Origin: Acidiphilium sp. PA
Lineage (GTDB): Bacteria; Pseudomonadota; Alphaproteobacteria; Acetobacterales; Acetobacteraceae
Direction: 5' to 3'
NCBI RefSeq assembly: GCF_026191915.1
Contig: NZ_JAIMBY010000003.1
Coordinates: 62,001 to 126,000 of the forward strand
Length of the DNA: 64,000 bases
Below the pieces are notes generated by a model. It ran no database searches, had not been told where the DNA came from, and worked only from the letters and a program-made list of their open reading frames with translations. The translations under genes were made by a program, and so were the position numbers. This document shows positions 12,991-62,329 of this stretch, piece by piece. The stretch's first letter is position 1, and every line of letters starts with the position of its first letter.

Positions 12991-13239
12991 ATGGCGATGA
13001 ATTTGAGCAAGACGCGTTTGGCTGCGATTGTCGGGGCGACGCTGGTGGCGGGGAGTGTGATGGGTGGCGTGGCGATGGCGTATCAGAGCCACATGTTCGC
13101 GGCGCGCAGTGCGCTTTACACCGCAAGGTCACAGCTTCTGGTGGCGCTGCATAACAAGGGCGGCCACCGGATTGCGGCGCTGAATGCGGTGGACGGCGCG
13201 ATCCGGCAGGTCAATCTCGGCATTCAAGCCGGCCGATAG
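12991..13239 (+). CDS. Small exported hypothetical protein
   Basis: An 82-residue protein, MAMNLSKTRLAAIVGATLV onwards, with an N-terminal signal or anchor segment ending near VAMAYQSH. A short helical part containing KGGHRIAALNAVDGAIRQVNLGI follows. A good ribosome binding site (GGAGA) lies directly before the ATG, supporting expression. I do not recognise the family. The upstream 160 bases hold no other gene. Confidence 0.65.
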   Translation: MAMNLSKTRLAAIVGATLVAGSVMGGVAMAYQSHMFAARSALYTARSQLLVALHNKGGHRIAALNAVDGAIRQVNLGIQAGR

Positions 13240-13286
13240 GCCGCCGCCGCTTGCCGGGGCGGGGCGGTGCGCGTATTTTAGCGGTC

Positions 13287-13820
13287 ATGAAACACGCCCC
13301 CGCCCTTTTTCTTGCCCTGACGGTTCTGGCCGCCCCCGGCTGCGCGCTCGCCGCGACCACGACCGCTCCCGCCACCAATGCGCCGAAACCACTCGGTGTC
13401 TTCAAATCCTGGACCGCCGCAACCTATGGCAGCGGTGCGGATCGGGCCTGTTACGCCTTCACGACCAGCAAGTTGCCGAAAGGCAGCAAGGCCACGCCCG
13501 CGATGCTGACGGTGACCGAGCGTACCGGGTTTCGCGACGAAATCTCGCTCAGCCAGGGCATTACCTACACCAAGGACGCCAAGGTGACGCTCGCGGTCGG
13601 CAGCAACAAGCTCGCGTTCTTCACCAAGGATAATATGGCCTACGCCATGAAGGGTGCCGCGACCACGCAGGCGTTTCTCGGCGGTTCCTCGGTGGTGGCA
13701 ACCGCGACCGCACCGGCGGGCAAGCCGGTGACCGATACGTTCGGGCTCGATGGCTTCTCCGACGCCTATAAGGCGATCGAGAAGGCCTGCCCGGCGAGCG
13801 CCGCGCCGAAAAAGAGCTAG
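13287..13820 (+). CDS. IalB-like (invasion-associated locus B) family exported protein
   Basis: A 177-residue protein with a signal peptide ending around CALAATTT. The mature sequence contains FKSWTAATYGSGADRACYAFT, LTVTERTGFRDEIS and, near the end, TFGLDGFSDAYKAIEKACP. The Cys-Tyr after the first tryptophan and the final GF-x-AY-x-C match the IalB family, widespread in alphaproteobacteria as secreted proteins; no reaction is established. The start was chosen at the methionine of the signal peptide. The rlmN gene follows after three bases. Confidence 0.75.
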   Translation: MKHAPALFLALTVLAAPGCALAATTTAPATNAPKPLGVFKSWTAATYGSGADRACYAFTTSKLPKGSKATPAMLTVTERTGFRDEISLSQGITYTKDAKVTLAVGSNKLAFFTKDNMAYAMKGAATTQAFLGGSSVVATATAPAGKPVTDTFGLDGFSDAYKAIEKACPASAAPKKS

Positions 13821-13823
13821 ATC

Positions 13824-14990
13824 ATGTCGATCACGCTCGATCTCGACGAGGCCGAGCGCACGCGCATTCTGGCCAAGGCCGCCTTGTTCGCGCCGCCGCC
13901 GGCCTTGCTGGCGGATGGCCGGCGTGACCTGGTTGGACTGTCACGCGCAGAGCTTGGCGAGGCGGTCGCCTCGATCGGCGAGGCGGCGTTTCGCGCCAAG
14001 CAATTGTGGCACTGGATCTATCACCAGGGCGTGACCGATTTCGCCGCAATGGTGAATATCGCCAAGCCGCTGCGTGAAAAACTCGCCGCGCATTTCGTGA
14101 TCGGCCGGCCGGCGGTCGCGGCGGATCAACTCAGCGCCGATCAGACGCGCAAAATGCTGTTCCGGTTTCGCGATAACGAGGCGGTCGAGACCGTCTATAT
14201 CCCCGATGTCACCGAGGATCGGGGTGCCGTGTGCATATCATCGCAGGTGGGCTGCACGCTGTCGTGCCGGTTCTGCCATACCGGCACGCAGCGGCTGACG
14301 CGTAATTTGTCGGCCGCCGAAATCGTCGGACAGTTCATGGCGATGCGGGACGCCTATGGCGAATGGCCGAGCCCGAAAGGCGAAACGCCGCGCCTGCTCT
14401 CGACCATCGTGCTGATGGGGATGGGCGAGCCGCTGTATAATTACGAAAACGTCGCCGCGGCAGTGAAGATCATCATGGACGGCGAAGGCATCGGCCTGTC
14501 GCGCCGGCGCATTACGCTTTCGACCTCCGGTGTGGTGCCGATGATGGATCGGTGCGGTGAGGAACTTGGCGTTAACCTTGCGGTTTCGCTGCACGCCGTG
14601 CGCGATGAGGTGCGCGACGTGATCGTGCCGCTCAACCGCAAATACAATATCGCCGAACTGATCGCCGCCTGCCGGCGCTATCCGGCCGCCTCGAACGCCA
14701 GACGCATCACGTTCGAATACGTCATGCTCAAAGGCATCAATGACAGCGAGGCCGATGCGCGGGAACTGGTGCGGTTGATTGCCGGGATTCCAGCCAAGGT
14801 GAACCTGATCCCGTTCAATCCATGGCCGGGGTCGACCTATGAAACCTCGAGCGGCAATGCGATCCACCGCTTCGCCGACATCGTGATGAACGCCGGCTAC
14901 GCGGCACCCGTGCGCACGCCGCGCGGCCGCGATATTCTCGCCGCCTGCGGCCAGTTGAAATCGAGCGTGGCGGCGGGTGAGGCGGCTTAG
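13824..14990 (+). CDS. rlmN: 23S rRNA (adenine(2503)-C(2))-methyltransferase RlmN
   Basis: A 388-residue radical SAM enzyme that methylates C2 of A2503 in 23S rRNA and A37 in some tRNAs. The [4Fe-4S] cysteines are in GCTLSCRFC at about residues 144, 148 and 151. The methyl-carrying cysteine is expected in DILAACGQL near the C-terminus, and [12 protein letters not shown] and [10 protein letters not shown] match the family. Length is normal. Confidence 0.95.
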
Positions 14991-14993
14991 CCG

Positions 14994-15028
14994 GGTGGCA
15001 ATGCTCCTCTGGTCTGAGGTCAGCCACC
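14994..15028. terminator. Possible bidirectional terminator
   Basis: Outer arms GGTGGC (14994-14999) and GCCACC (15023-15028) enclose a second CCTC/GAGG pairing between the convergent rlmN and lysR-type genes. There is no T-run, so intrinsic termination is uncertain. Confidence 0.35.
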
Positions 15029-15038
15029 AGCCGGCGGG

Positions 15039-15917
15039 CTAGCGGCCGTCCACACCACAGCGGGCGCGGCATAGTTTCACGAACCCGGACACCGCCGCAC
15101 CCTGTGGGCGGCCCGCGATCGCGACCAGCCGGACTCGCCGGGTCAGTGCGGGTTCGGTGATCGGCAGTCCGATCAGTGTTGCGGGCAGAACGATGCGTTC
15201 GGAGAGCAGGGCGACGCCGAGACCCGCATGGACCAGGTCGAGTAGATGCCCGATCGCGCCGTCACAACGCCGCAGCCGGGCCTGGCCCTGGCACATGGTG
15301 TCGAACAGGGCCGCGAAGCCGCCGCAACGTTCGCCGTGCAGCAGGGTTTCACCGTGCAGATCCCCAGCGGTGAGCGAGGTTCGCTCAGCCAGGGCGTGCG
15401 AGACCGGCAGGACTGCCACGGCGCGATCATCGTACAATGGCCAGTGGTTGAACCGGTCCGGCAGATCGCAATCCTCGGGCAGCAAGGCGCAATCTAGCAT
15501 GTCGGTCAGCATCGACTCGATCAACATGGCGGCGGCTGCTTCGTCGAGCCGGATCATTAAATCGGGCAGGATGGCGGCGACTTCGCGCACCGCGAAGGCG
15601 ATCGCGCCGCAGCCGATGCCCGGTGCGAGCCCGATTTTCAGACTCGCAATCGGCTGGCGCCGGCGCGCATCGGCCAAGGCCGCCGCGCTGTCTGCGGCCA
15701 TCAGCATCGCATCCAGATGCGGCAGCATGGTGCGGCCGAGTTCGGTCAACTGGGTCGTGCTGCGTTCACGAAACAGCAAGGGGCCGCCGAGTTCGTCTTC
15801 AAGCCGCTGGATCGCGCGGGTGAGGGCCGGCTGGGTGACATTGCAGGCCTCGGCCGCGCGGGTGAAATTCAGCGAGCGGCTGAGAGCAACGAAATAACGA
15901 ACCTGCGTCAGTTCCAC
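15039..15917 (-). CDS. LysR-type transcriptional regulator
   Basis: A 292-residue LysR regulator. The N-terminal winged helix-turn-helix is residues 1-60 (FVALSRSLNFTRAAEACNVT and QPALTRAIQRLEDELGGPLL). The substrate-binding domain starts near SLKIGLAPGIGCGAIAF. I choose the GTG start giving VELTQVRYFVALS, the usual LysR N-terminus; the frame continues upstream only inside the peroxiredoxin-like gene, whose stop is five bases away. Regulator and peroxiredoxin-like gene therefore share a transcript, unlike the more common divergent arrangement. Two cysteines in the ligand domain (ERCGG, DTMCQG) could be redox-active in an OxyR-like way, which is speculation. Confidence 0.88.
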   Translation of the reverse strand: MELTQVRYFVALSRSLNFTRAAEACNVTQPALTRAIQRLEDELGGPLLFRERSTTQLTELGRTMLPHLDAMLMAADSAAALADARRRQPIASLKIGLAPGIGCGAIAFAVREVAAILPDLMIRLDEAAAAMLIESMLTDMLDCALLPEDCDLPDRFNHWPLYDDRAVAVLPVSHALAERTSLTAGDLHGETLLHGERCGGFAALFDTMCQGQARLRRCDGAIGHLLDLVHAGLGVALLSERIVLPATLIGLPITEPALTRRVRLVAIAGRPQGAAVSGFVKLCRARCGVDGR

Positions 15918-15921
15918 GGCG

Positions 15922-16572
15922 CTAATCCGGTGCGGCCAATTGGCGCAACGCCGCCACGATGCGTTCGGGCGCCGCACGCCGCGTGAAATCGACATCGGCA
16001 AACCGCCAGGCGACCCGACCTTCGCGATCGAGCAGGAAGGTCGCAGGGATCGGCAGGAACCACGCGTCGTTGCCGTGTCGGCCAGGAACATCGAGCCCGA
16101 CCGTCTGCAGCCGGGCCTTATAGAGTGGCGGCAGGCGGAACACGACGCCGGCGGCGAGCCCCACCCCGCAGTCGATGTCCGACAGCACCTCGAATGCGGC
16201 GCCATGATTGATCTTGGCGTCCCGCGCCGGTAGGCCGGTATCGGGTGTTAGGGCGACCAGCGATGCGCCAAGCGCCTCGATTTCCGGTAGAAGAGTAACG
16301 AGCGCGTCAAGCATCAGGCGGCAATACGGGCACCATTCGCCGCGAAAAAACTGAACAATTACCGGACCACGCGCGAGCAGGGCAGACAGTGATACGAGTC
16401 TACCCTCGGTGTTGGGCAAGATGAAGTCGGGAAACGGCGCTTCCTCGACCAATACGCCGGGCATCAACCCGTTGCGGCTCAGCGTCGCGACGGTTTCCTC
16501 GTAGGCGGCGCGCACCGTCTCATTGACCAGACGGAGGTTGCGTTCGGCATCGAGCTTGTCCTGTAGGCTCAT
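15922..16572 (-). CDS. Peroxiredoxin-like (AhpC/TSA family) protein
   Basis: A 216-residue thioredoxin-fold protein of the AhpC/TSA or alkyl hydroperoxide reductase-like class. The active-site region is QFFRGEWCPYCRLML, and ATFLLDREGRVAWRF is the later strand. The WCPYC motif with two cysteines is as in the peroxiredoxin-like group with an N-terminal helical extension. Likely activity is thiol-dependent peroxide or disulfide reduction in the cytoplasm; no signal peptide is present. It is transcribed together with the LysR-type gene. Confidence 0.82.
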   Translation of the reverse strand: MSLQDKLDAERNLRLVNETVRAAYEETVATLSRNGLMPGVLVEEAPFPDFILPNTEGRLVSLSALLARGPVIVQFFRGEWCPYCRLMLDALVTLLPEIEALGASLVALTPDTGLPARDAKINHGAAFEVLSDIDCGVGLAAGVVFRLPPLYKARLQTVGLDVPGRHGNDAWFLPIPATFLLDREGRVAWRFADVDFTRRAAPERIVAALRQLAAPD

Positions 16573-16630
16573 GTCCTGATCATACGCCGTTCCGAAACTC
16601 TGCCATAGATCGGCCTCCGGGTTGGATGGT

Positions 16631-16668
16631 GCCCCGATCGGCCCGGATTCTCCCCGGCCGATCGGGGC
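16631..16668. terminator. Hairpin terminator after the Met/His pentapeptide gene
   Basis: A perfect 13-bp stem, GCCCCGATCGGCC (16631-16643) with its complement at 16656-16668, and a 12-base loop. It sits nine bases beyond the stop of the pentapeptide gene. No T-run follows on either strand. Confidence 0.6.
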
Positions 16669-16676
16669 GGAGAGGG

Positions 16677-16904
16677 CTATTGCGCGGGTGTGTGGCTCAT
16701 GGTGCTGTGCTTCATGGTGTCATGCTTCATGGTGTCATGCTTCATTGCGCTGTGCTTCATGGTGTTGTGCGTCATCGTGCTGTGGCTCATCGCGTCTGGC
16801 TTGGCCGTGCTACTGGCGGACTGGGCCTGGGCGATGCCACCGGTGGCGAGGGCGAGGGTCAGTGTGCCCAGCGTCAGTGCGCGAGCGATCAGATTTCGGT
16901 TCAT
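16677..16904 (-). CDS. Met/His-rich pentapeptide (MXKDX-type) repeat exported protein
   Basis: A 75-residue protein with a signal peptide cleaved near AQAQ (residues 25-28). Seven exact five-residue steps follow, with Met at 39, 44, 49, 54, 59, 64 and 69 and His two residues after each; units read MSHST, MTHNT, MKHSA, MKHDT, MKHDT, MKHST and MSHTP. This is the architecture named pentapeptide MXKDX repeat protein. A GGAG ribosome binding site precedes the ATG. At DNA level the repeat region (about 16690-16790) is a run of diverged 15-base units. It is divergent from the cytochrome b and molybdoprotein genes. Candidate roles are a sacrificial methionine pool for oxidants or MxH copper binding; neither is shown. 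Confidence 0.82.
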   Translation of the reverse strand: MNRNLIARALTLGTLTLALATGGIAQAQSASSTAKPDAMSHSTMTHNTMKHSAMKHDTMKHDTMKHSTMSHTPAQ

Positions 16905-17099
16905 TGCAATCTCCGTGCGGTTGATGGTCGGGTCCGATGCGGCGGCGACCGCTGGGGCCGTCCGACGCCTCGATGATGTGCCGCGGCGACGCGCTGACGG
17001 CCAATGCCGATTGAGCATGGTTTCGATACCTCGACGCGGGCGGTGCCCCGCGTGCATGAAGGGCAGGCAGACCTCGCCACGATTTCAGGAGAACGACCC

Positions 17100-17723
17100 A
17101 TGGCGCATCGCAGACCGATCCACCCGCTCGCCTTGCGGGTGATGCACTGGCTCAACGCCATCGCCATCGTGACTCTAATTGGCAGTGGCTGGGAAATCTA
17201 TGACGCGTCGCCCTTCCTGCCCTTTACCTTTCCGCAATGGGCCACGATCGGCCAATGGCTTGGCGGTGCGATTGCCTGGCATCTGGCCGCGATCTGGCTG
17301 CTGATGCTGAACGGGGCGCTCTATCTCGGCTGGGGGCTCGTGACCGGCCACTTCCGGCGCAAGCTGCTGCCGCTGAGCCTGCGCGCGGTGCTGCGCGACA
17401 CGATTGCGGCGGCGCGATTTCATCTACCGCACCGGCCGGGCGTTTACAATGCGGTGCAACGGCTGCTCTACCTCGGCGTGATCGGGCTCGGCGTGCTGGC
17501 GGTGCTGAGCGGCCTCGCGGTGTGGAAACCGGTGCAACTCTGGCCGCTGTCCGATCTGTTCGGCGGATTTTTCGTCTCGCGGGTCATCCACTTCATCGCC
17601 ATGGCGGGGATCGTCCTGTTCCTGGTCGTTCATCTGCTGCTGGTGGCCCTGGTGCCGCGGGTGTTGCCCGCGATGATCACCGGCGGACACCTGCCGAACC
17701 CTGAATCGGAAGCCGCGGAGTAG
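17100..17723 (+). CDS. Cytochrome b561-type membrane subunit
   Basis: A 207-residue membrane protein with four or five spans and histidines placed for two b-type hemes: HPLALRVMHWLNA near the N-terminus, AIAWHLAAIW, and RVIHFIAMAG with VVHLLLVALVPRV at the C-terminal end. It matches the Ni/Fe-hydrogenase-cytochrome-b561 domain used to pass quinol electrons to periplasmic enzymes. An AGGAG site precedes the ATG. The next gene, five bases on, encodes a Tat-exported molybdopterin protein, so this is probably its membrane electron donor, analogous to but not homologous with MsrQ/YedZ. Confidence 0.85.
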   Translation: MAHRRPIHPLALRVMHWLNAIAIVTLIGSGWEIYDASPFLPFTFPQWATIGQWLGGAIAWHLAAIWLLMLNGALYLGWGLVTGHFRRKLLPLSLRAVLRDTIAAARFHLPHRPGVYNAVQRLLYLGVIGLGVLAVLSGLAVWKPVQLWPLSDLFGGFFVSRVIHFIAMAGIVLFLVVHLLLVALVPRVLPAMITGGHLPNPESEAAE

Positions 17724-17727
17724 ACCA

Positions 17728-18450
17728 ATGCCAGCCCTCACCCTCAACCGCCGCAACCTGCTTGGCCGCGCCCTCGCGCTTGGTGCCGCCACGACGCTGA
17801 CCGGCTGCGATTTCGATGATCCGTCGCACCCCGATGTCGCGGATCGTGTGCTCAACGCCATGTCGCACTGGAACGACGAGGTGCAGGCCGCCCTGTTCAA
17901 CCCGCACACGCTGGCTCCGACATTCCCCGCCTCCGCCATCACCCGGCCGCCGCGCTTCAATGCGTTTTACGATATCGACAAGGCGCCACAGGTCGACCTT
18001 GCAACCTGGCGGCTGGGTCTGACCGGACGGATCGGCGACAAGCAGCCCTGGCGGATCGCCCAGCTGCGCGCCTTGCCGCAGGAAAGCCAGATCACCCGGC
18101 TGATCTGCGTCGAAGGCTGGCGCGTCGTTGGCCAGTGGAGCGGCGTGAGGCTTGGCGACTTCCTGCGCCGGATCAACGCCGATACCAAGGCGCGCTACGT
18201 CTCGTTTCAGTGTGCCGATGGGTATTTCGAGAGTATCGACATGGAATCGGCCCTACATCCGCAAACCATCCTTGCGCTCGACTTTCTCGGCGCGCCGCTC
18301 ACGGCGCCGTTCGGCGCACCGCTGCGGCTGCGGATTCCAACCAAACTCGGCTACAAGAACGCCAAATCAATCGTCGCCCTCGGCGTGACCAACCAGTTTC
18401 CCAGCGGCTACTGGGAAAAACAGGGCTATAACTGGTTCGGTGGCTCATGA
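17728..18450 (+). CDS. Tat-exported molybdopterin-dependent oxidoreductase (sulfite oxidase/MsrP-like)
   Basis: A 240-residue protein with a twin-arginine leader (NRRNLLGRALALGAATTLTG) and an oxidoreductase molybdopterin-binding domain. The molybdenum-ligating cysteine is expected in RLICVEGWRVVGQWSGV. LRLRIPTKLGYKNAKSIV and the C-terminal GYWEKQGYNWF match the SuoX/YedY fold. It lacks the dimerisation domain of true sulfite oxidases. It is encoded with a cytochrome b561-type partner and overlaps the DUF1223 gene by four bases. Methionine sulfoxide reduction (MsrP role) is plausible from the neighbouring Met-rich protein but not proven. Confidence 0.85.
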   Translation: MPALTLNRRNLLGRALALGAATTLTGCDFDDPSHPDVADRVLNAMSHWNDEVQAALFNPHTLAPTFPASAITRPPRFNAFYDIDKAPQVDLATWRLGLTGRIGDKQPWRIAQLRALPQESQITRLICVEGWRVVGQWSGVRLGDFLRRINADTKARYVSFQCADGYFESIDMESALHPQTILALDFLGAPLTAPFGAPLRLRIPTKLGYKNAKSIVALGVTNQFPSGYWEKQGYNWFGGS

Positions 18451-19142
18451 AGGTCCGGCGCGCTTGGCTCGCAATCGTCGCGGCTGCCGCGTTCGGCGCA
18501 CCGGCCGCTGCGGCCCGCCCCGTAGTGGTCGAATTGTATACCTCGCAATCCTGCTCCGACTGTCCGCCGGCGGAGGCGTTGATGGCGCGGTTGCAGGCCG
18601 CCGATCCTGCCATTCTGGTGCTCACGGAGCATGTTGGCTATTTCGATGGTCCGCGCTGGACCGACCGGTTCGCCCTGGCCGCCGCAACCGCACGGCAGAA
18701 ATGGTATGCAGCAATGCATGGCGCGCATGATGTCTATACACCGCAGGCGATCATCGATGGTCGCAGCGTTGCGGTCGGCTCGGACCGACCCGCCGTAACC
18801 GCCGCCATCGCTGCGGATCTAGCGCGGGCGGCGCAGCCGGCGGTTCACATCGCGATCGACCGCGCGGCGCTCGGCTGGCGCATCTCGATCACCGGTGCGA
18901 TGCCCGATCATGCAGCAAAAATCGAGGTTTTTCACTATGATGCGGTCGATCGTACCGCAATTGGTGGCGGTGAGAACCGGGGTGCGGATCTGCGGCAAAT
19001 CCATGTCGTGCGTGCCATCACCACGCTCGGCGCCTGGACCGGCCCGATGTTCGAGCAGCGCATTGCACCAGGTCCGGCGCGCCATATCGCCGTGGTGGTG
19101 CAGCAGGATAACGGCACCATCCTGGGCGCCGCCGCGCAATAA
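18447..19142 (+). CDS. DUF1223 exported thioredoxin-like protein
   Basis: A 231-residue protein with a signal peptide ending near AAAARP. VVVELYTSQSCSDCPPAEALM follows; the CSDCPP motif corresponds to a thioredoxin-type CxxC, and HVGYFDGPRWTDRF and YTPQAIIDG are the other DUF1223 signatures. The family is periplasmic with no fixed biochemical role; redox activity is inferred from fold and motif. The ATG overlaps the molybdoprotein stop, so the three genes from the cytochrome b gene onward are one operon. Confidence 0.85.
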   Translation: MKVRRAWLAIVAAAAFGAPAAAARPVVVELYTSQSCSDCPPAEALMARLQAADPAILVLTEHVGYFDGPRWTDRFALAAATARQKWYAAMHGAHDVYTPQAIIDGRSVAVGSDRPAVTAAIAADLARAAQPAVHIAIDRAALGWRISITGAMPDHAAKIEVFHYDAVDRTAIGGGENRGADLRQIHVVRAITTLGAWTGPMFEQRIAPGPARHIAVVVQQDNGTILGAAAQ

Positions 19143-19275
19143 ACTGTCCGGCAGCCGCACCAAGACGGGGCGCACCGCAGGTTTTTATCCGCCGCCGATC
19201 ACAAGGGAGTGTAAATCCCCGCCGAATCGCCTATCACCCCGAGCGTCCGTGAAATAAATCGTCTTGGGAGATATT

Positions 19276-20874
19276 ATGTTCCATCAGCTACTCACTCCGG
19301 TCGGGGGCAGCCTCGGGCTGTCCTTCGTTGTCGCCGCCGTGCCCATCGCTGTTGTGCTGGTCATGCTTGGTGTGCTGCGCCGCCCGGCCTGGCAATCGTC
19401 GCTGGGCGGGCTGATCGCCGCTCTGGTGATCGCGATCGTCGTCTGGCGCTTTCCGACGTTTCTGGCACTCGACAGCGTCGCCGCCGGCGTGGTGTTCGCG
19501 CTCTGGCCGATCATGTGGATCGTCGTCAACGCACTGCTGCTCTATAACATTGCGGTCGACTCCGGCCATTTCGATGCGTTCCGCGAATGGATCATCGAGC
19601 ATCTGCCGAACGATCGCCGTGTGGTGCTCGTGGTGGTGGGTTTCTGCTTCGGCTGTCTGCTCGAAGGCATCGCCGGCTTCGGCACGCCGGTCGCCATCAC
19701 CAGCGCGTTGCTGATCATGGTCGGCTTTCCGACACTGGAAGCGCTCACGTTCACGCTGATTTTCGATACCGCCCCGGTCGCATTCGGCGCGTTGGGCGTG
19801 CCGATCACGGTGCTCGGCCAGGTGACCGGGCTGCACGCTGTTACGTTGGGCCAGATGGTCGGCCGTCAGTTGCCATTTTTTGCCTTCCTGCTGCCATTCT
19901 ATGTGGTCGGCGTGTATGGCGGCATGCGCTCGATCAAGGCGCTGTTCCCCATGCTGCTGGTCGCCGGCGCGAGCTTTGCGGTCACGCAGTTCGTGACCTC
20001 GAACTATATCAGCTACGCGCTGACCGACGTGCTGGCCTCGCTGGTGTCGCTGGTCATCACCATCGGGTTCCTGCAGGTCTGGCGCCCGGCGCCGGACGCG
20101 CAATTCGCGATCCGCGCCGAGGCGCTCGCCGGCCACCGCGCCAGCGGCATTCCGAGCTGGCGCGGCTGGATCCCCTGGGTCGTGGTGTCCGCCGTCGTCA
20201 TCATCTGGACCGATCTGAAAATATTCGCGATCGGCCAGCAGGTGATCAAATGGCCCGGGCTGAACAATGCCGTATTCATCTCGCTGTATCATAAGCCCTA
20301 CGCAGCACTCTGGGTGTTCCAGCCGCTGGCGACCGGCACGGCCATTCTGCTCGCCGCGGTGATCACCGCCGCCCTCGTCGGCGTCGGGCCTGCCGGCTTC
20401 ATCAAGGCGATCGGCACCACCTGGCGGCAGAGCCGCCTCGCGATCTTCACGGTGGCGCTGATCATCGGCCTTGCCTATCTGATGAATTATTCCGGCATGA
20501 ATTACACGCTCGGCCTCGGCGTCGCCTCGATCGGCGTGCTGTTCCCGCTGGTCTCCCCGTTCCTGGGCTGGGTGGCCGTGTTCCTCTCCGGCAGCGATAC
20601 CTCGGGCAATGCCCTGTTCGGCAATCTGCAGGTCGTCGCCGCCAATCAGCTGCACCTCAACCCGGTCCTGATCGCCGCGACCAACTCATCGGGCGGCGTG
20701 ATGGCGAAAATGATCTCGCCGCAGAACATCTCGACCGGCGTTTCGACCACCGACCTCAAAGGCAAGGAAGGCATCGTCTTTGCCCGCACGTTCAAGCATA
20801 GCGTTCTCTTGACCGCTTTGCTTGGCGTGATGGTGATGGCGCAACAATATCTGGTGCCATGGATGATCCCGTAA
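19276..20874 (+). CDS. L-lactate permease (LctP/LldP family)
   Basis: A 532-residue polytopic transporter. Conserved blocks include GCLLEGIAGFGTPVAI, FDTAPVAFGALGVPI, the central LMNYSGMNYTLG and FLSGSDTSGNALFGNLQ, followed by NSSGGVMAKMISPQNI. These define the lactate/glycolate:proton symporter family. The start is the ATG preceded by GGGAG; an upstream in-frame TTG is not needed. It stands alone; no lactate dehydrogenase gene is adjacent. Confidence 0.92.
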   Translation: MFHQLLTPVGGSLGLSFVVAAVPIAVVLVMLGVLRRPAWQSSLGGLIAALVIAIVVWRFPTFLALDSVAAGVVFALWPIMWIVVNALLLYNIAVDSGHFDAFREWIIEHLPNDRRVVLVVVGFCFGCLLEGIAGFGTPVAITSALLIMVGFPTLEALTFTLIFDTAPVAFGALGVPITVLGQVTGLHAVTLGQMVGRQLPFFAFLLPFYVVGVYGGMRSIKALFPMLLVAGASFAVTQFVTSNYISYALTDVLASLVSLVITIGFLQVWRPAPDAQFAIRAEALAGHRASGIPSWRGWIPWVVVSAVVIIWTDLKIFAIGQQVIKWPGLNNAVFISLYHKPYAALWVFQPLATGTAILLAAVITAALVGVGPAGFIKAIGTTWRQSRLAIFTVALIIGLAYLMNYSGMNYTLGLGVASIGVLFPLVSPFLGWVAVFLSGSDTSGNALFGNLQVVAANQLHLNPVLIAATNSSGGVMAKMISPQNISTGVSTTDLKGKEGIVFARTFKHSVLLTALLGVMVMAQQYLVPWMIP

Positions 20875-61826: not shown

Positions 61827-62329
61827 TCAGACCGCCTAGATACATCGGCATGGCATCATCCATGATCCGCGCCGCCGCCGCAGTGGGCCTCGCCGCCGGG
61901 CTGACCGGCACGGCCTTCGCCGCCGCGCTGCCACCGGTCGGCCTGTGGCAGGGGCGCTACAAATGCGCCCAGGGCCAGACCGCGCTCGCGCTCCAGATCA
62001 CCGCGACCAGCCCGACCCGGGTGCACGCGGTCTTTTACTTTCATGCCCTCGCGAGCAATCCGCACGTGCCGCAGGGATGTTTCTCGATGCAGGGTCGTTT
62101 CGACCCCGCCACCAGGCGCCTGCACCTGAGCCCGATCCGCTGGCTGTCGCAACCGCCGTTCTATGTGTGGACTGGCCTGTCCGGCACGGTGGGGGCGGGC
62201 GGTACCGTCCTGACCGGCACGATCCAGGGGCCGGCCTGCACCGGTTTCGCACTCAAACCGAGCGCGACGCTGCCAGTGCCGCCCGCGCCGCCGGCCTGCC
62301 GGATGGATCAGAACGGGCCGACGGTGTAG
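61823..62329 (+). CDS. Small exported hypothetical protein
   Basis: A 168-residue protein with a signal peptide ending near GTAFAAALPP. A compact domain with four cysteines follows (RYKCAQGQT, VPQGCFSM, GPACTGF, APPACRMD), compatible with two disulfides. The ATG at 61823 overlaps the DsbD-like stop; later starts at 61850 or 61862 would give a more standard signal peptide. Coexpression with a thiol interchange protein fits its cysteines. The family is not recognised. Confidence 0.65.
   Translation: MIRPPRYIGMASSMIRAAAAVGLAAGLTGTAFAAALPPVGLWQGRYKCAQGQTALALQITATSPTRVHAVFYFHALASNPHVPQGCFSMQGRFDPATRRLHLSPIRWLSQPPFYVWTGLSGTVGAGGTVLTGTIQGPACTGFALKPSATLPVPPAPPACRMDQNGPTV

Follow-up and report, generated by a model that had tools for sequence, protein, structure and literature searches.

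A putative methionine-cycling oxidant defence cassette in Acidiphilium sp. PA and its LysR/peroxiredoxin module

We analysed a 64-kb window (positions 62,001 to 126,000 of contig NZ_JAIMBY010000003.1) from the 4.54-Mb draft genome of Acidiphilium sp. PA, focusing on a locus at 15039-19142 that appears to encode a periplasmic methionine-cycling oxidant defence cassette. Genes on the plus strand encode a 207-residue membrane b561-type cytochrome subunit, proposed to carry electrons from quinol to the enzyme (17100..17723; PF01292, 77.1 bits), an MsrP-like molybdopterin oxidoreductase, proposed to act as a methionine sulfoxide reductase (17728..18450; PF00174, 98.5 bits), and a DUF1223 protein with a CSDC motif and a signal-type N-terminus (18447..19142; PF06764, 168.3 bits), whose start overlaps the enzyme stop and which is followed by a lactate permease. 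The minus strand carries a 75-residue exported Met/His-rich pentapeptide protein, a proposed sacrificial oxidant sink (16677..16904; TIGR02953), a peroxiredoxin-like protein of the AhpC/TSA fold with a WCPYC motif, in which no signal peptide was seen (15922..16572; PF00578, 69.6 bits), and a 292-residue LysR-type regulator with a GTG start (15039..15917; PF00126 and PF03466), for which the open reading frame as listed (up to 16205) begins too early. Between the two groups, an alignment of five loci and a pattern scan delimit a conserved intergenic block (17000..17038, plus strand), proposed as a LysR operator serving both divergent units.

Gaps within each strand group are small (104 bases between the peptide and peroxiredoxin-like genes and 4 between the latter and LysR; 4 between cytochrome and enzyme, then the overlap), and this spacing suggests that the locus comprises two divergent operons. 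A first-pass annotation of this DNA had placed a Met-rich exported peptide divergent from a b561 subunit, a molybdoprotein and a DUF1223 protein, and all of these genes are found at or near the positions it gave. It had also described the peroxiredoxin-like and LysR genes as flanks; both are present, but mere flanking understates the arrangement, as they share the strand of the peptide gene and probably form one unit with it.

The peptide has a signal-type N-terminus with an AQA, followed by seven in-register M-x-H-x-x repeats, and its last 47 residues hold 7 Met and 7 His. It narrowly reaches the TIGR02953 'pentapeptide MXKDX' family (44.7 bits vs. a cut-off of 41), and in a sister species the repeat is retained despite synonymous codon changes. 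A filter for exported Met-rich open reading frames returned this peptide as its one match in the window. Across 35 cassette loci of the bacterial family it returned 11 matches within 2.5 kb of the enzyme, including the L055 peptide, which is only weakly Met-rich and has no such repeat, and 1 match in the 114 kb beyond that distance. Other loci totalling 57 kb gave 0 matches, and 182 kb of sequence distant from the enzyme in a set of 80 named loci gave 2. Most peptides of these 80 loci belong to the Lys/Asp type (M-x-K-D-x), not to the Met/His type, and a search of plasmids with the window peptide gave no match. The pairing of Met with His, read in the first-pass annotation as special to this locus, turned out to be shared with Kozakia and other SigF/NrsF-linked Acetobacteraceae cassettes.

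Among curated models, the molybdoenzyme scores 100.7 bits with MsrP, compared with 34.7 for SorA, 29.6 for SoxC and 17.3 for SorT, the sulfite oxidase/dehydrogenase models having cut-offs of 600 (SorA), 570 (SorT) and 420 (SoxC). Its best solved relative by phmmer is E. coli YedY (E 1.3e-16), which is also the best Foldseek match (1xdy/1xdq) of an AlphaFold2 model with mean pLDDT 81. By Foldseek and VIA-align the modelled enzyme has the SUOX fold, and together with PF00174 and a twin-arginine translocation (Tat)-type twin Arg this bears out the earlier description of a Tat molybdoprotein of the SuoX/MsrP fold; as YedY has the SUOX fold too, the fold itself does not discriminate a sulfite oxidase/dehydrogenase from an MsrP-like enzyme. 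We aligned the window enzyme with 30 of 57 enzymes plus E. coli MsrP (alignment A2), and with 30 of 80 enzymes (alignment A4). The Mo-ligand-type Cys127, Glu129 and Trp131 occur in 32 of 32 aligned rows, E. coli MsrP included, with the surrounding motif reading CVEGW in the window enzyme vs. CVEAW in MsrP. A twin Arg is combined with a Cys at the lipobox position (lipobox-like LTGC in the window enzyme) in all 31 rows other than E. coli MsrP, whose twin Arg sits elsewhere, and the conservation of both features makes it probable that the enzyme is exported by the Tat route and anchored as a lipoprotein next to its membrane partner. Identity of the window enzyme to the 30 relatives' rows, whether linked to a peptide or not, is 50-98% for 29 of them and 34% for L102, which is truncated.

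The same genome holds a separate true MsrP (L005, 396.8 bits). This gene and the genome's only PF01794 match, an MsrQ candidate (L211), lie on different contigs and so do not show up as an msrPQ operon. Elsewhere in the genome, a 66-residue C-terminal fragment of another enzyme copy (G000:C15:30148-30345; L007, L208) is 85% identical to the window enzyme and has one stop, and is perhaps the remnant of a lost duplicate.

The first-pass annotation had viewed the b561-type partner, in place of MsrQ, as the mark of a variant system with a different electron donor, and here the survey contradicts it, as every one of the 56 cytochromes scanned proved to be a PF01292 protein, with no PF01794 match among them. 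The window cytochrome likewise matches PF01292 only, with E. coli MsrQ serving as a control that matches PF01794 only. In alignment A1 (the window plus 55 of 58 cytochromes, omitting L049 as a near copy of L048, L052 as a 40-residue fragment and L065 as the same place as L039), four His residues at positions 16, 61, 164 and 178 are present in every lettered row (52, 56, 55 and 54 rows, respectively). This four-His pattern agrees with a subunit of the di-haem b561 or NiFe-hydrogenase type.

To place the locus among its relatives we used an enzyme profile, taking as named loci the best 80 of 573 relatives; because the profile was built mainly from peptide-linked loci, peptide linkage is favoured in the counts that follow. 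A Met-rich exported peptide lies within 2.5 kb in 77 of the 80, a b561-type subunit is present in 76 (in the other four the contig ends just upstream) and MsrQ in 0. MsrA accompanies 36 and MsrB 9, a SigF-like sigma factor 24, NrsF 21, a histidine kinase 28, a response regulator 29, a peroxiredoxin-like protein 1 and weak LysR matches 4, and DUF1223 occurs in 9, mostly between the sigma and cytochrome genes. Starting instead from the peptide, a phylum sample contains the family in 54 of 398 genomes at E<=0.001, 35 of them above the family cut-off. The neighbourhood survey of MXKDX proteins that the first-pass annotation had proposed as a check, carried out on 29 new loci of the best phylum-sample matches, gave a cytochrome and/or enzyme within 1.5 kb in 17 and no MsrQ-type protein in any; the remaining 12 have neither cytochrome nor enzyme, and 10 of these are without any marker tested.

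Individual layouts follow the same pattern, such as plasmid pKB14400_3 of Kozakia baliensis (NrsF, sigma factor, MsrA, MsrB, cytochrome, enzyme and MXKDX peptide), in which both MsrA and MsrB start with export-type signals as read from their sequences, and whose enzyme is 84% identical to that of G025, a genome from the window's own family. A Rhizobium acidisoli locus carries NrsF, sigma factor, MXKDX peptide, cytochrome, enzyme and GntR, and an Azonexus metagenome-assembled genome (L176) carries NrsF, sigma factor, cytochrome, enzyme and a co-oriented peptide, with a b561-type cytochrome 57% identical to that of a Klebsiella plasmid. Peptide, b561-type subunit and MsrP-like enzyme thus form one conserved cassette, and the window, with an MsrP-like PF00174 enzyme adjacent to a homologous membrane cytochrome, is a member of it. 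Since control varies among members, we did not take the type of control as essential for membership.

The enzyme type is also common on enterobacterial plasmids: a search at E<=1e-60 gave 134 plasmid records, 58 of them from Escherichia and 13 from Klebsiella. In K. pneumoniae pINF237_04 (L117) and in E. coli pKMi006_2 from river water (L123; 4391-6058) a cytochrome and a Met-rich peptide adjoin the enzyme, and L123 also has IS26 and ErmB in its vicinity and, upstream, a two-component pair. A search of complete E. coli genomes for the Klebsiella cassette at near identity gave no match.

By homology, the window cassette belongs to the published family of Azospira MrpX, Brucella BcrXQP and E. 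coli C3566-C3568, systems that we compared through their published descriptions and sequenced relatives rather than through their own sequences: a contig search with the enzyme profile returned no Azospira or Brucella among its matches, and chlorite dismutase, searched for as a lead to the Azospira island, had a single weak match across 60 genomes. In Azospira suillum, the Met-rich exported peptide MrpX, an MsrP-like enzyme and a membrane partner are proposed to cycle methionine against hypochlorite (PMC4623255, PMC5748585). A review figure gives YedZ as the quinone oxidoreductase that feeds YedY (PMC5748585). This MrpX/YedY1/YedZ1 system resembles the window in peptide, enzyme and membrane partner, and differs in being under SigF/NrsF control, where LysR is proposed here; as a stand-in for Azospira YedZ1, the Azonexus genome, which has the gene set reported for perchlorate islands (PMC4623255), encodes a b561-type cytochrome. 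Brucella melitensis bcrXQP is induced by hypochlorous acid (HOCl) and contributes to HOCl resistance, and shares MXKDX peptide, membrane subunit and enzyme with the window but is controlled by an ECF16 sigma/anti-sigma pair, BcrS/AbcS (PMC8315932); the Rhizobium acidisoli layout is that described for bcrS-abcS/bcrXQP, and its cytochrome is 80% identical to that of L102, a PF01292 protein.

The counterpart in uropathogenic E. coli is an operon of c3566 (annotated 'cytochrome B'), c3567 and c3568, in which mutation of either c3566 or c3567 impairs growth in the presence of tert-butyl hydroperoxide (PMC8550376). The products are again a cytochrome, an MsrP-like enzyme and a Met-rich peptide, here under the two-component system OrhK/OrhR (PMC8550376). 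The functional analogy with MrpX/YedY drawn in the first-pass annotation gains support from these comparisons, as the window peptide, subunit and enzyme are homologous to cassettes that are genetically protective against HOCl (PMC8315932) or peroxide (PMC8550376), with MsrA/MsrB accompanying many relatives. Both of the latter papers treat the cytochrome-enzyme pair as MsrPQ homologues, at 27.6% and 23.1% identity in PMC8550376, and the term 'b561' was not found in the literature searched on these cassettes. E. coli MsrPQ (YedYZ) itself shares with the window a SUOX-fold periplasmic enzyme with a CVE(A/G)W motif and has a published quinone-fed membrane partner, but its MsrQ is PF01794, its MsrP is longer and lacks the lipobox Cys, and the annotated neighbours examined include no peptide gene. 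Also close to the window are Kozakia pKB14400_3 and loci L048/L049, from the same bacterial family, with a Met/His-type peptide and a b561-type subunit (the L048 enzyme being 79% identical), which differ in having MsrA and MsrB genes instead of an adjacent LysR/peroxiredoxin-like gene and in lacking the intergenic box described below.

The real difference between this locus and the known cassettes is one of control, namely the LysR and peroxiredoxin-like genes. The regulator has HTH_1 and LysR_substrate domains, and an identity as OxyR was rejected (90.6 bits with the OxyR equivalog model vs. 329). Of 13 chosen genomes, 9, its own included, contain a match to it at E<=1e-50, and the L048 and L049 genomes contain none. 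Cysteines 143, 198, 218 and 283 of the regulator's effector domain are kept in 7 of 7 box-associated LysRs, with 143, 218 and 283 missing from three more distant LysRs compared, and it is a reasonable reading of this pattern that the regulator acts as a thiol-based oxidant sensor. Across 150 family genomes, peroxiredoxin-like proteins at least 50% identical to that of the window occur at 10 places, 6 of which adjoin the cytochrome-enzyme pair; a seventh lies ahead of a cytochrome where the contig ends, and the remaining 3 have no such pair close by in the stretches examined, which cover part of the family-sample enzyme places, mostly best matches. The WCP[YF]C motif is kept in 6 aligned peroxiredoxin-like members, and CSxCPPA in 12 aligned DUF1223 members.

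The intergenic block reads GCCAATGCC-N5-RGCAT (aligned form GCCAATGCC-N5-GGCAT), containing the palindrome ATGC-N7-GCAT, and after the palindrome continues with TTCGATACCTCGACGCG (aligned form TTCGATxCCTxGAcGCG in the 5-locus alignment). LysR sites commonly follow a T-N11-A rule, with which the palindrome agrees, so that it fits a candidate LysR site. An inverted-repeat finder did not list the window box, whose arms are short. In an enzyme tree built without enzymes of <200 residues, L065 and L102, the window enzyme falls in a clade of ten rows (support 0.98) that holds the LysR-peroxiredoxin loci, and a short box with at most 2 mismatches precedes the cytochrome gene in 7 of the 9 checkable loci of this clade (1 mismatch in the window, 2 in L050 and 0 in the rest). 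The two clade loci without it are SigF/NrsF-linked, and L052, which is cut, was left uncounted. The box also lies, with 2 mismatches, upstream of the peroxiredoxin-like gene in L204, a LysR-peroxiredoxin locus free of the cassette. A longer pattern, allowing up to 3 mismatches, occurs once in the genome's own 4.5 Mb, at 17000-17038; over 13 genomes, all 7 of 7 sites with at most 2 mismatches are at the cassette or a LysR-peroxiredoxin pair, 5 sites with 3 mismatches lie elsewhere, one of them, in G023, being also a perfect short box, and a reversed control pattern gave 0. It has no match in G026, which has a more distant LysR-peroxiredoxin pair, and none near the pair in G076. The conservation of this operator-like site, its co-occurrence with LysR and its rarity are direct observations on the DNA.

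SigF-type control of the relatives provides a contrast. The published SigF-type motif GTAAC-N15-18-CGAA (PMC3511200) is present in exact form in 9 of 9 other SigF-linked loci (L062, L066, L080, L086, L209, L210, L116, L122 and L176) and in none of the LysR-linked cassettes scanned. SigF control of the window locus was rejected, as the window has no exact motif (0.54 expected by chance, which is weak alone) vs. those 9 of 9. Neither SigF/NrsF nor two-component genes were found adjoining the window cassette, the genome's two NrsF copies sit on other contigs, and by gene order the LysR module takes the place that SigF/NrsF or a two-component system occupies in related cassettes. In the enzyme tree, L048/L049 (SigF/NrsF with MsrAB) are sister to the window's genus (support 0.96) and nested in its clade, and because these SigF/NrsF loci sit inside the LysR-peroxiredoxin enzyme clade, the control module has probably been exchanged at least once, in either direction. 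NrsF-like genes lie on both sides at L048/L049. In seven of the SigF-linked loci (L062, L066, L080, L086, L209, L210 and L116) a further exact SigF-type motif lies directly upstream of a separate peptide gene, and the peptide of Acetobacteraceae SigF-linked cassettes may have its own SigF promoter. In another lineage, peroxiredoxin-like genes of 35-38% identity occur about 6 kb from the enzyme (G008, G022, G025, G048, G079, G085 and G149), and the L209 and L210 stretches of that lineage hold a SigF-linked cassette with such a distant gene, which suggests a looser, older peroxiredoxin-cassette link there.

Together, homology and gene neighbourhood argue strongly for a methionine cycle in the window, and we regard a periplasmic methionine-cycling oxidant defence cassette as the likely function of the locus. 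Periplasmic oxidants (hypochlorite, chloramine or peroxide) would oxidise the small exported peptide at its many methionines, so that other envelope proteins are spared, and the lipoprotein-type MsrP-like molybdoenzyme would reduce the resulting methionine sulfoxides back. Electrons from the quinol pool would, as judged from the family, pass via the four-His b561-type subunit, and the DUF1223 and peroxiredoxin-like proteins would act as accessory thiol-redox proteins. The dedicated LysR would bind the palindrome between the divergent units and switch both on. In the literature searched we found no published account of LysR control of such a cassette; 'LysR' is absent from the available text of PMC8315932 and PMC8550376, and LysR and Met-rich-peptide terms both occur in the available text of PMC4623255 and PMC7464077. 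As judged from sequence comparison, then, what appears to be new here is the LysR/peroxiredoxin control module with its conserved, rare operator-like site, the b561 partner and the Met-plus-His peptide being ordinary for the family.

A number of observations weigh against this interpretation, several of them concerning the box. Taken by itself, the palindrome is no more frequent in the window than chance predicts, and short-box sites occur elsewhere, including a perfect one on another contig of G023. With at most 2 mismatches, the short box occurs 27 times in 1.17 Mb of background (from which 19 individually examined loci and 9 overlapping or same-genome loci were excluded), although one of these is a true site, that of G068 in L017. 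In G068 the box is present, yet the peptide was not found and there is no LysR at E<=1e-50 and no peroxiredoxin-like protein at E<=1e-25; one exact SigF-type motif lies about 3.5 kb from that cassette. The LysR-linked cassette of G057 has the short box with 2 mismatches and does not match the longer pattern, and L048/L049 have no exact SigF motif either. As for the peptide, the phenotypes given in the available text of PMC8550376 are those of c3566 and c3567, with none seen for the peptide gene alone, and in a class sample the peptide family occurs in 9 of 289 genomes, with the cytochrome-enzyme pair near only 1 of 8 new loci. The enzyme, finally, falls far short of the canonical MsrP equivalog cut-off (100.7 vs. 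207 bits).

Two further observations of this kind lead to a different reading, in which the cytochrome and enzyme would make up a respiratory oxidoreductase acting on a small sulfur or nitrogen compound (sulfite, or an S- or N-oxide), and the peptide and LysR would belong to a separate stress response. In 24 of the 35 family loci with the pair no Met-rich peptide lies within 2.5 kb (L052 and a few others being cut by contig ends), and a few peptide-less pairs have another exported protein instead; the pair is therefore not tied to a peptide sink, and because such pairs sit beside other exported proteins the enzyme may also serve other substrates. The three such proteins tested, of about 200 residues, show similarity to DUF5666 below the cut-off (L057 and L068) or none (L118, on a Rhizobium plasmid), and these loci perhaps represent a different substrate branch. 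Structure gives this reading some further room, with VIA-align ranking a sulfite dehydrogenase (Z 17.4) about equal to, or slightly ahead of, YedY (Z 16.4) as a match to the enzyme model. Nevertheless, we consider it quite improbable, since the Cys motif is that of MsrP save for one residue, the MsrP model leads SorA by 66 bits, the box precedes the pair in most checkable clade loci, and among the ten window-clade enzymes a clear peptide lies near 7, with a weak one at L055, a contig end at one and none at L054.

Copper or silver handling offers another explanation: the peptide, whose Met and His repeats have a chemistry that also suits metal binding and counts against a purely oxidant role, would be a periplasmic metal buffer like CusF, with the enzyme keeping its methionines reduced for Cu(I) and the oxidant link secondary. 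In E. coli, copper induces MsrPQ, which repairs the copper chaperone CusF (PMC9302797), the peptide is weakly similar, below threshold, to the copper proteins CopI and CopL, and the peptide-less pair at L118 neighbours genes annotated as a heavy-metal two-component system. The surroundings do not fit well, as the nine window proteins scanned (12991-20874) include no copper pump, oxidase or metal regulator, the relatives associate with MsrA, SigF/NrsF or a two-component pair, and the predominance of M-x-K-D-x over Met/His among the peptides of named loci argues in the same direction; we judge metal handling unlikely as the primary function.

Beyond the methionine-cycling assignment, we put forward, tentatively and with doubts that somewhat outweigh our confidence, that MXKDX-linked enzymes constitute a second, separate periplasmic methionine sulfoxide reductase class, pairing a short lipoprotein MsrP-like enzyme with a di-haem b561-type subunit and distinct from MsrPQ, which in this Acetobacteraceae clade would be run by a new thiol-based LysR sensor with a private operator, and in a nested sister lineage by SigF/NrsF. 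None of the MXKDX-linked enzymes examined has MsrQ as its membrane partner, and properties carried over from MsrPQ (flavin, donor and partner contacts) should therefore be rechecked for this family. The locus is now a testable unit, with one regulator, one site and two divergent transcripts, and if LysR control holds true, the same methionine-recycling cassette would be wired to at least three control modules, namely SigF/NrsF, two-component and LysR.

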